Shown in pieces: positions 39,565-44,614 of a DNA stretch of 44,622 nt. Under the pieces are notes generated by a model. The model did not search any database and was not told the origin of the DNA. It was given only the letters and a program-made list of their open reading frames with translations. A program made the translations under genes and the position numbers. Position 1 is the stretch's first letter; every line of letters begins with the position of its first letter. This DNA is from a bacterium (GTDB lineage: Bacteria; Bacteroidota; Rhodothermia; Balneolales; M1805), in assembly GCA_006226965.1 (NCBI GenBank), contig SBGQ01000081.1, positions 1-44,622 of the forward strand, given 5' to 3'.

Positions 39565-40854
39565 ATGGCTACAAAAAAATCGCTGTTCAGTATAAAAATT
39601 GAATTCTCTGATGAGGATTTAAATCAGTTATTTGAGCCGTTTGACCCATTAATGGCTGAAGGGTTTAATCAATTAGAAGAATTATCGAATCCTGTAAAAG
39701 AGCCTTTCGACCCGATTGATTACAATTATCTCAACTCGATAAAAGATTCATTTTTAGCGCCTATTATTGACCATTATTTCCGTGCCGAGATTTATGGGAT
39801 GGAAAAACTACAAAAAGAAGGTCCGGCAATTTTAGGGTGTAATCATTCCGGAACCGCATTTCCGTATGACGCTTTGGTTTTAGATGCCTTGATGTGGCGC
39901 CATTATCATTTCATGCCCAAATACAAGTGTCGTTCAGTGTATTCACCAAAATTGGCTAAAGTTTGGTGGATGCGTCCGTTTGGGATCGACAATTTTTGGA
40001 GAAGAGGCGGCGCTGTTGATATGACGTTCAAAAATTTTAGTGCCTTATTAGAGGGTGGAGAACGTGTTTTATATTATCCCGAAGGTGTGCCCGGAATCGG
40101 AAAAGGATTTACAAGAAGGTATCAGTTACAGCATTTTTATTCGAGTTTTGTGGTTTTGGCAGCCATGCACGATGCGCCGTTTTATCCGATTTTATGTGTA
40201 AATGCAGAATGGGTAAATCCGACTTCTATCACTATAAAATGGGTTGATAAATTGTTCGATAAACTTGCCGGAATTCCGTTTTTTCCAATTCCTGCGATAT
40301 TTGTCGGCTTGATATTTCCTTTCTTTTATTATTTGGCATTTCCTTGCAACATGAAATTTTTTGTCGGAAACCCGGTAAATATTCGCGAAGCATTAAAGAA
40401 AAACGGCGTGACCGATTTTGCCAAAGCTGATAAAATTGATTATCAAAAAGTTGCCGATCAAATTCGCGATACCATGCAGATTGATTTGGATAAAGCTGTT
40501 CACGAACACGGTAAAAAACCATACCATGCAAAAACATTATGGTCAAAAATGGGTGAATTAGGTTGGAGCTGGTTAAAAGCGACTCCATTAGGCTGGCCGT
40601 TCGCATTTTTGGGTCATTCTCGGGATTTAAGCAGACCCAAAGCCGGAAAGTTGTGGTCTGTAATTCGTGATTGGGATATTTGGTTCTTCTTCTTCCCTTT
40701 CGGATGGATTTTTCTCGCATTAACGCGTGCACTTCGAAAACCGCCTTATGGTTATCGAGGCTTAAGCAAGAGTGAATGGCGTAAGAAAACGGGTTCCTAT
40801 TTTTGGAATTTGGAGCACAACCCAATTCCAGGTAGAAATGAACGGTTCGATTAG
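39565..40854 (+). CDS. Lysophospholipid acyltransferase-family protein
   Basis: A 429-residue PlsC/LPLAT-type protein. The active site reads NHSGTAFPYD, with His94 and Asp102 seven residues apart, unlike the usual HX4D. YYPEG (FPEG block) is at about 173. WWMRPFGI and the hydrophobic segment VGLIFPFFYYLAF are consistent with membrane association. The longer N- and C-terminal parts (FDPID start, LSKSEWRKK tail) are not typical of 240-residue PlsC. Substrate is unknown. It follows the UbiB gene and converges on the barrel cluster with 4 bases overlap. Confidence 0.8.
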   Translation: MATKKSLFSIKIEFSDEDLNQLFEPFDPLMAEGFNQLEELSNPVKEPFDPIDYNYLNSIKDSFLAPIIDHYFRAEIYGMEKLQKEGPAILGCNHSGTAFPYDALVLDALMWRHYHFMPKYKCRSVYSPKLAKVWWMRPFGIDNFWRRGGAVDMTFKNFSALLEGGERVLYYPEGVPGIGKGFTRRYQLQHFYSSFVVLAAMHDAPFYPILCVNAEWVNPTSITIKWVDKLFDKLAGIPFFPIPAIFVGLIFPFFYYLAFPCNMKFFVGNPVNIREALKKNGVTDFAKADKIDYQKVADQIRDTMQIDLDKAVHEHGKKPYHAKTLWSKMGELGWSWLKATPLGWPFAFLGHSRDLSRPKAGKLWSVIRDWDIWFFFFPFGWIFLALTRALRKPPYGYRGLSKSEWRKKTGSYFWNLEHNPIPGRNERFD

Positions 40855-42062
40855 AACGAATAGGTTAATTCAAAGCCGTGTAAAACAGATCCTGTATCCT
40901 TTCCCGATGCAAAAGAATAATGAAATGAAACGGGTTTAAAGAAGGGAATCATCTTATCTACATACATTTTTTTGAGACCGTCTAATGATACTTGTAAACC
41001 CCAAACGGAGTCATTAAAGGAGTCTTGATTTGATATATAGTAGGATAGGCTTGAATAGGACAAGGTAACTGACTCATATAGCGCCAATCTAATCCCTTGT
41101 GCAATATCAATACCGGGTTTATTATTTCCTCTAAACAATTGATCCCAAACAGAAATATCAATTTCAGTAATTTTTTGATTTTGACTTCGTGAGCGTTGTT
41201 GCAAATCAAAAGCATCGCGGGTGAAATCTAAAGCAAAGAGTTGTACACGCGCATTGTTCACATAAGTGAATAAACCGATAGTTAGGGATTGTCCGAAACT
41301 CGTGGTTTGTGGCATGGCTAAGGTTTGATTCAGCCAAAAAGAATCCGGATTATTTATGGTAAATGAACGGCCGACATTTTTTAAAGCATATCCAAATCTG
41401 TAGGTAAACAGAAAATCTTCATAACTGCGCTCATAATTATATAAGCTTAAAAAATCTATAAAATCGAGTTCTACTATGAGTCCGATGTCGTGTAAGATTC
41501 TGTTAAAATTATAGTTATACAAATCGTCTTGTGCAAAAAACCATTTCAAAGAATAACCGAATGCAATATTAATTCCTTCATTAAATTGAATACTTGCACC
41601 GTTACTTATTTGAGATACATTAAATGCGGATCTGATATAGGTTGAGTCGTAGCCCTTTACAGTGTTAGAAACACGATAGGTATAATCTTCATGTATTTGT
41701 GAAGTATGTAAAATGGCAATTCCCCAATCGGAAGCCCGATTGATTAGGGTTGATTTGCCTTGATACCGAATAGCGTAATCGGAGCGTTTGTATGCATCAA
41801 AAAACCAAGAGTTATTGGGGTTAATACCGAGTCTAATATTAGATTTATCCGATGAATTAAATCCTAATTGTGCCGGACTGTACCAAACTGCGGTTGATGA
41901 AGAACTAGGAAGCGATGTAAATGCTCCGGAAAGCCCATATTCGGCTGGCATTGCTGAATTAGTAAGAAAAGGAAAACTATTGGGTACAAACTGAGCTTTC
42001 GATGCTTGTACAAAGCACATCAAAAAGAAAATGGATAAATAAAAGGGTAACTGTGTTTTCAA
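40851..42062 (-). CDS. PorV/PorQ-like outer-membrane barrel protein, copy 1
   Basis: A 403-residue protein with a signal peptide (hydrophobic 6-20, KAQ at 22-24). It has the family start: EYGLSGAFTSLPSSSS and WYSPAQLGF. Beta-strand pattern runs to the end, and the last residue is Phe. No ATG fits, so it starts with TTG at 42062. This is the PorV/PorQ/UPF0164 type (FadL-like barrel) linked to T9SS in many FCB genomes. It is the last of three tandem copies and is 9 bases from the second. Confidence 0.8.
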   Translation of the reverse strand: MKTQLPFYLSIFFLMCFVQASKAQFVPNSFPFLTNSAMPAEYGLSGAFTSLPSSSSTAVWYSPAQLGFNSSDKSNIRLGINPNNSWFFDAYKRSDYAIRYQGKSTLINRASDWGIAILHTSQIHEDYTYRVSNTVKGYDSTYIRSAFNVSQISNGASIQFNEGINIAFGYSLKWFFAQDDLYNYNFNRILHDIGLIVELDFIDFLSLYNYERSYEDFLFTYRFGYALKNVGRSFTINNPDSFWLNQTLAMPQTTSFGQSLTIGLFTYVNNARVQLFALDFTRDAFDLQQRSRSQNQKITEIDISVWDQLFRGNNKPGIDIAQGIRLALYESVTLSYSSLSYYISNQDSFNDSVWGLQVSLDGLKKMYVDKMIPFFKPVSFHYSFASGKDTGSVLHGFELTYSF

Positions 42063-42071
42063 ATTGTATTC

Positions 42072-43331
42072 TTAAAAACGATAATATAAGTCAATTCCCC
42101 AAAATGTCGGATTTTTCAAATAGGAATATGTGTTACTTTCTTCGACGAGAGCAGAGTAGGTGATACTCAATGAATAGGGTTTAATGGACGGAAACTGCTT
42201 ATCTAAATACGCTTTTTTTAATCCGTCTAAGTGAAATTGAAATCCTTTATAGGTTGATTTTGAATAATAGGTCGTATAAATGTAATCACTGTCATTAATA
42301 GTCACCCATTCGTTTGCGAATTCACGTTTTCCATATGAAATGCTAAATGTTTCTAAGAAGTGGAAACGTAAACCTGTAGAGGTTTCAATTTTCAAATCAG
42401 GTTTGCCATTAAAAAAATTACGAGTGAGTGAGATATCACTACTAAAGATAGATTGTGTTTGTTGATTGTTTTTTTGTTGTAAATCAAATATATCTCTTGA
42501 AATATCAACGGCAAATACTTCTATTGCTTGGTGTGTAACGCTTAGTGTTAATGATTGTCCCAATTTTGCAAGTTGAGGCATGGCATAAACGATGTAATTA
42601 TTTTCAATCTCATCTTGAAAATTATAGAATTCAGTGTTATATGAATACGATTTTCCCACATTATGAATAGAATACCCCAATCTGTAATTTATGTCCATTT
42701 TTAAAAATGAAGAATCAAAAATCCGTAATCCCAAAAAATCAAAGAGAGATAAATCAGTGATTAATCCGAAATCATGCAGAAGGCGGTCAAAATCAAAGGT
42801 AATCCAGTTGTTGGAATACCATTTAAGCGAATAGCCTATTGATACTCTAATGCCCGTGAAAAAAGAAGTACTGATACCTGAGCTTAATAATGAAACACTT
42901 GAAAAAAGAGGCAAAGTCTCACCGGTTCCCTCTGGTTGGTCAATAGTCGTAACTTGAAGAACTCCAAAATCCTCATTTGCATATGCTAAACTTATGCCCC
43001 AATCAAACGTTCTATTCTTTTTAACAATCGAGTTTTGATAACGAACAGAATAATTGGAATACGAGAGGTCATTAAAAAAAGCTTGATTATTGGGAGATAA
43101 TGACACTACTAAGCTTCGTGTTGGAGTGTACCCTAATAAAGCAGGATTGTACCAAGCTGCCATTGAGGATTGTGATGGAAGCGTTGAAACTGCCCCTGCC
43201 ATTCCCAATTCATTAGGTGAAGCAAACGAGTTCAGAAAATCAAAGTTAGAATTGTATGAACTCTGAGCGAACGTCTTACATGGAACAATCAGCAAAAAAA
43301 TTAAAAGGGATGTACAAGGTATTTTTAACAT
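42072..43331 (-). CDS. PorV/PorQ-like outer-membrane barrel protein, copy 2
   Basis: I start at the ATG at 43331 (419 residues), with GGAG 6-8 bases before it; an upstream TTG is the nominal frame start. It has a signal peptide ending in TFAQ. PNELGMAGAVSTLPSQSS and WYNPALLGYT match copies 1 and 3. The EVFAVDISRDIFDLQQ segment matches ALDFTRDAFDLQQ of copy 1. It ends YYRF. It lies between the two other copies and is probably co-transcribed with them. Confidence 0.82.
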   Translation of the reverse strand: MLKIPCTSLLIFLLIVPCKTFAQSSYNSNFDFLNSFASPNELGMAGAVSTLPSQSSMAAWYNPALLGYTPTRSLVVSLSPNNQAFFNDLSYSNYSVRYQNSIVKKNRTFDWGISLAYANEDFGVLQVTTIDQPEGTGETLPLFSSVSLLSSGISTSFFTGIRVSIGYSLKWYSNNWITFDFDRLLHDFGLITDLSLFDFLGLRIFDSSFLKMDINYRLGYSIHNVGKSYSYNTEFYNFQDEIENNYIVYAMPQLAKLGQSLTLSVTHQAIEVFAVDISRDIFDLQQKNNQQTQSIFSSDISLTRNFFNGKPDLKIETSTGLRFHFLETFSISYGKREFANEWVTINDSDYIYTTYYSKSTYKGFQFHLDGLKKAYLDKQFPSIKPYSLSITYSALVEESNTYSYLKNPTFWGIDLYYRF

Positions 43332-43343
43332 CGTTTTCTCCAA

Positions 43344-44614
43344 TTAAAACGAATATGTAATTTGGAATCCAGAAACAGTTGAACCATCTGTTACCCAGTT
43401 AATGTTAGGCATCACACTTCTTGAAAAAGAGAAATTAAATGGTTTAAGTGCGGGTAGATAATCATCTAAAAAGATTTTTTTAATCCCATCCAATCGTATG
43501 GTATAGCCTTTTGTTTTTAAAGGATAGTCATAACCAGCGCCAGAATAGTTGCCATTAAATATTTCAATAGTATTTAAGAATGAAAATTTGATGCCTTCAT
43601 GTAAATAAACATTTCCTGAAGCTTTACCGTTAATCAAATGATCTGAGAATGATATTTCATTGTAAAATCCCTTTGTATAAACGAGTCGGTTCACTGTTGG
43701 GTTTGTGATAAAATCAAATTCGGGGTTTAATGCTACCATTTGCTCTCGGGCTTCACGGCTCACGTCCACAGTAATAGATTTAAAAGCACGTTTTTAAGTT
43801 TAAAATCGAACCCAAGTGTCCCCGAAAAACCAAGATGAGCGAAACGAGGTAAAGGGTCGGCATATATCGGATTGTCTGTATAGTTAATTTCGTCGCCTAT
43901 ATTTTTGAGGGAATAACCACCCCGGATTTTGGAGATAATATAATAGAGCTTATCAGCAGGCTTAAGCCAAGAAATATTAAGTGCATCAGTAATGTTCAGT
44001 TCAGAATAAATGCCAAAGTCATAAGCGTTTTCTTTAACATATGCCTTTAAACTTTCTCCATTAGTAGTAACACCGCCTAGACCTAGTTTAGATTTGATGT
44101 ATCGGTATGAAAAACCAGCGCTGATATTAAACCCTCTAAATACTCGGGTTCCTAAACCAAAGCTTAAGGTGTGGGTAAAATCATAGCTATTATATCTTCC
44201 TAATTCATTACCGGATTCATCTGTTTGAATTTGTTCTCCTAAATCAAAAAAAAGATGATAGAAGCTAAGTCCCAATGTTGTTTCTTTACCTAAGAATGTA
44301 AAAGAATGCGAAAACCGCGCTGCGTAATTATCGAAATGTATCCCGACATCAAATTGAGCTAGCCATTCGGAATGTGTTGTTGCTGCAAGTGATAACGAAT
44401 ATCCCGGATTAATTCCCAATTGAGCCGGGTTGTACCAAGCGGCGTAAGTTGAAGAACTTGGCAGTGCAGTAAACGCTCCAGCCATTCCAAACTCTTCAGG
44501 TGTTGGATTCAGTTGCAAAAATGGAACTCCGGTAATTCCAACCTGCCCCATTCCAGAACTATAACCAAACATTAGCATACATACAGTAAAACAAACTCTT
44601 AAAAAATGTCTCAT
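43344..44614 (-). pseudogene. PorV/PorQ-like barrel protein, copy 3, interrupted by a -1 frame change
   Basis: Two overlapping frames: 284 residues from the ATG at 44614 and a downstream frame covering 43344-43769. Joined, they make about 423 residues, the same length as copies 1 and 2. The N-part has a signal peptide ending near MGQ, EEFGMAGAFTALPSSS, and WYNPAQLGI; the C-part has VDVSREARE (as in copies 1-2) and ends QITYSF. The break is in TTTAAAT at 43778-43784, in the exact frame T TTA AAT; slipping back one base there restores the reading. It is either a one-base deletion, a sequencing error, or programmed frameshifting. Confidence 0.8.

Follow-up and report, generated by a model that had tools for sequence, protein, structure and literature searches.

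A PorV/PorQ-like barrel gene that is probably broken, with a slippery heptamer that is likely coincidental

Background

Heptamers of the form X XXY YYZ that lie in phase with the upstream frame, before an early stop, are known from bacterial sites of programmed -1 frameshifting, such as those in dnaX and in the transposase genes of the IS1 and IS3 families. Stimulators are not obligatory in all bacterial cases of -1 frameshifting. In E. coli, even the best heptamers shift at a rate of about 0.3% if they lack stimulators, and the most efficient class of heptamers is V VVA AAG (PMC4066793).

Genes whose reading frame changes partway through have also been surveyed on a large scale. Antonov et al. 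(2013; PMC3711429) reported 206,991 predicted frame transitions, of which 104,260 were unclustered; the unclustered cases were attributed to errors, recent indels, false positives, or orphan recoding. They accepted programmed frameshifting only where the site was conserved within a cluster of 5 or more genes, and 146 clusters showed apparent recoding. Singletons that were validated by BLAST were expected to be mostly sequencing errors.

Here we consider a barrel gene, gene C, at the right end of a 44,622 bp contig (C19). This contig, which is the whole stretch of DNA that we analyzed, is referred to as the window, and it comes from a draft assembly of 184 contigs (3.78 Mb). Like the sites in dnaX and the IS1/IS3 families, gene C has an in-phase X XXY YYZ heptamer (T TTA AAT) before an early stop. 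Unlike those sites, it lacks both a stimulatory structure in the vicinity and an SD-like element, and the motif is not conserved; also, the motif is outside of the most efficient class, and the short product has no evident role. On the other hand, we saw no difference between gene C and the singleton frame-disrupted genes (or hypothetical pseudogenes) of Antonov et al.: the change of frame is found in one gene only, the homologs are uninterrupted, and both halves match one family. We conclude, with a probability of roughly 0.9, that gene C is a PorV/PorQ-like barrel gene that was broken by an ordinary mutation or by an error in assembly or sequencing, and that the heptamer is coincidental.

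Gene C and its family

Three barrel genes form a tandem on the minus strand, with gene C first, followed by its paralogs B and A (Table 1). Gene C begins with an ATG at 44614, and its 284 codons are closed by a TGA (43760-43762). Just past a TAA, at 43793, the -1 frame opens; it ends with a stop at 43344. This C-terminal part is open over 149 codons and has kept the motifs of the family.

Table 1. Features of the right end of the window.
Feature	Position	Strand	Basis
Barrel gene C, N-terminal frame, PorV/PorQ-like	43760..44614	-	ORF, 284 aa + stop; match to NF033709
C-terminal part of gene C, -1 frame, stop-to-stop	43344..43793	-	Stop positions; matches paralogs A and B
Zone that holds the change of reading frame, both frames open	43760..43793	-	Stops in frames 0 and -1
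T TTA AAT heptamer, X XXY YYZ phase	43778..43784	-	In frame 0, CTT TTA AAT
Run of five A (A5) at the zone's edge, another possible indel site	43791..43795	-	Sequence
Intact tandem paralog B, 423 aa	42072..43343	-	37% identity to A, ~31% to parts of C
Intact tandem paralog A, 403 aa	40851..42062	-	ORF, sequence comparison

If the two frames are joined, the product has 423 amino acids at every allowed switch point, which is the length of B and 20 more than A. With a profile built from A and B, the score of the joined product is as high as 130.9 bits, as compared to 85.0 bits for the N-terminal part and 49.7 bits for the C-terminal part. The proposal of the first-pass annotation that the joined protein fits the two adjacent paralogs was thus borne out. 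Both by profile scoring and by comparison to uninterrupted homologs, the two halves match one protein in register. For instance, an uninterrupted homolog of 391 amino acids from genome G071 aligns with the joined product over nearly its full length. The C-terminal ends are ITYSF in gene C, LTYSF in A, and LYYRF in B.

The TGA of frame 0 overlaps a GTG in the -1 frame (GTGA, 43760-43763), and gene-finders may call the C-terminal part as a separate, coupled gene.

The N-terminal two-thirds of gene C are significantly similar to the PorV/PorQ family (NF033709, with PorV as NF033710 and PorQ as NF033711), but gene C is below the cut-offs of these models and its C-terminal third is divergent. Specifically, the N-terminal part matches positions 2-209 of the 326 positions of NF033709 (E = 5e-21, 75.6 bits), and neither it nor the read-through product (74.9 bits) reaches the curated cut-off of 90 bits. 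Against the PorV model, gene C scores 51 bits (cut-off 250). The genome's true PorV is on another contig (C76): it has 402 amino acids and scores 281.6 bits, which is above the cut-off, and the N-terminal part of gene C aligns with it at 36-38% identity. We found no match for gene C in Pfam, and a search by sequence against solved structures gave no meaningful match for the N-terminal part. Because the true PorV lies elsewhere, the tandem set is an accessory group of PorV-like barrels. In the order, just 5 of 129 genomes match paralog A; one of these is its own genome, and the matches in the others are weak. This scarcity would fit a dispensable, lineage-specific set.

Where the frame switches

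The zone in which both frames are open is 34 nt long, or 11 codons (Table 1). We reproduced from the sequence the first-pass annotation's reading of the heptamer: the upstream frame gives T TTA AAT with the phasing X XXY YYZ, and slipping by -1 leads to TCT ATT ACT GTG GAC GTG, which is the frame of the C-terminal part. The annotation went on to say that the change of frame lies on the heptamer. An in-phase heptamer is indeed in the zone, but the switch itself can be confined only to the zone as a whole. Across switch points 275-283, the profile scores are within about 3-4 bits, and the switch at the heptamer (279) is at the top with neither profile: it is 1.3 bits under the best switch with a profile of 31 sequences, and about 3 bits under the best with the profile of A and B. 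A tie between the frame switch and the heptamer is not supported, and any switch point in the zone is allowed. An indel at the heptamer itself is possible; the profile scores do not place the switch there.

The homopolymers at the break have lengths of 5, 4, and 3 only. The run of five A is at the edge of the zone, and a run of four T (43782-43785) is inside it. The first-pass annotation had also raised a one-A deletion in a short A/T run, and the run of five A is an alternative site for an indel. We also considered if gene C might be a phase-variable gene and rejected this, as there is no homopolymer of at least 7 and no tandem repeat at the break.

How surprising is an in-phase heptamer in such a zone? 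The 38 reading frames of the window (13,549 codons) contain 128 in-phase X XXY YYZ motifs, or about 1 per 106 codons, and TTTAAAT occurs in phase three times. The expected number of in-phase motifs in the zone is 0.10, or 0.04 for a stricter class (X different from Y, and Y is A or T). These expectations are mildly suggestive at most, and the motif was singled out after the fact. The in-phase heptamer of gene C is probably a chance occurrence, of a kind that is common where the sequence is AT-rich. With motifs this frequent, gene C illustrates how little an in-phase heptamer says in favor of recoding in such sequence.

Signals of programmed frameshifting

The downstream 78 nt have a predicted folding energy of -8.2 kcal/mol, as compared to an average of -11.2 kcal/mol for shuffled sequences (z = +1.15), and 186 of 200 shuffles fold at least as well as the native segment. 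The first-pass annotation was correct that there is no strong hairpin just downstream. More generally, this folding, which covers nearby structures free of pseudoknots, identified no stimulatory structure near the heptamer. There is no match to any RNA family in Rfam at the site. There is also no SD-like element within 30 nt upstream of the site; this may count for little here, since SD sequences are sparsely used by many Bacteroidota.

The C-terminal strand is usually needed for the assembly of an outer-membrane barrel (the BAM β-signal). The short product of gene C (284 amino acids) ends before the final third of the barrel and so lacks this strand. Because the C-terminal strands are missing, it is hard to see how the short product would be useful.

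Homologs at the site and quality of the assembly

Neither the change of frame nor TTTAAAT was found at this site in the 29 homologs that we aligned or in paralogs A and B (~25-40% identity). Any in-phase X XXY YYZ motif at the site was present in just 3 of the 29 homologs, and all three have GGGTTTC. The source genome is the sole member of its family in the collections that we compared, and the conservation of the site was tested at ~25-40% identity. More broadly, 228 of the 245 genomes of the class have a match. Among the matches listed, a single relative, G012 from the same order, has an internal stop (a TAA in its PorV-like match, G012:C112:7629-8384), and the others have open frames. A scan of the contigs in a public collection gave distant relatives only (26-30% identity), and these are mostly MAGs from the Balneolales/Balneolia. 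Within the same genome, we found no second intact copy of gene C; besides gene C, there was only a weak match of 76 bp to PorV.

To check the assembly, we compared stretches that total ~0.70 Mb with 1.2 Mb from the related genome G025 (median identity 46%). In these stretches, none of the 155 conserved genes (58,731 codons) had split-frame matches. The same procedure detected 127 of 155 simulated one-base losses (82%), and the upper bound on the proportion of genes affected by indels is roughly 2-3%. Therefore, the assembly is not full of indel errors. The clean control favors a genuine change in an accessory paralog, although a single error in the consensus is still compatible with it.

How the frame may have been broken

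We propose that the frame of gene C is broken by a net change of a single base, which lies inside 43760-43793 or on its border. As it stands, the gene would yield a product of 284 residues without the C-terminal barrel strands, which is probably non-functional. The first-pass annotation leaned towards mutation or sequencing error, and the uninterrupted homologs and the lack of stimulators support this. On the other hand, the long open frame and the retained motifs of the C-terminal part would also fit with continued use, and the conservation of the site could be assessed only with rather distant homologs. As to how the break arose, we infer that a genuine and recent single-base indel in an accessory paralog is somewhat favored. 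The other way to break the frame is on paper only: the organism's gene may be uninterrupted and the consensus wrong at one base. This is possible, but we hold it with less confidence. The assembly is a draft in 184 contigs and gene C is at the very end of one of them (the contig's edge is 8 bases from the ATG); also, there are A/T runs at the site, the C-terminal part is otherwise intact, and sequencing errors are what Antonov et al. (PMC3711429) would expect for most validated singletons. However, the control found no frameshifts among the conserved genes of the same assembly, the homopolymers are short, and the break is ~840 bases from the edge, which is several short-read lengths.

A quite different explanation, which the first-pass annotation had considered, is that ribosomes shift by -1 at T TTA AAT and make products of both 284 and 423 amino acids. 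This could be a programmed switch in a surface protein, confined to this lineage, or else low-level slippage at TTTAAAT could act as a "savior" of a lineage-specific indel. The phase of the heptamer, its position in the zone, and the direction of the shift are all as they should be, and so few such motifs are expected in the zone by chance. Nevertheless, we consider either form of this idea to be quite unlikely: the site has no local stimulator, neither the site nor the motif is conserved in homologs, the switch is not tied to the heptamer, the motif's frequency is compatible with chance, and the short product is incomplete and has no evident role. Also, TTTAAAT is not in the V VVA AAG class, which is the most efficient in E. 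coli (PMC4066793). Even less probable is that gene C is a two-part gene, with the halves translated separately by stop-start coupling at GTGA and pairing into a barrel. The overlap of the GTG with the TGA would allow this, but no SD-like sequence is upstream (again, weak evidence in this phylum), no homolog is split at the site, and the C-terminal part begins in mid-barrel with no apparent signal peptide, so its own export is unlikely. If programmed frameshifting were shown, recoding would have been found in an unusual place, an outer-membrane barrel gene; a frame-disrupted accessory gene has little import beyond the correct annotation of the contig.

Other features of the window

The barrel genes together (40851-44614) contain 21 in-phase X XXY YYZ motifs, while codon-shuffled versions have an average of 12.7 (standard deviation 3.7). 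Near the other end of the window, 128-1267 encodes a protein with a T9SS type A sorting domain (TIGR04183; 29.6 bits, cut-off 23).
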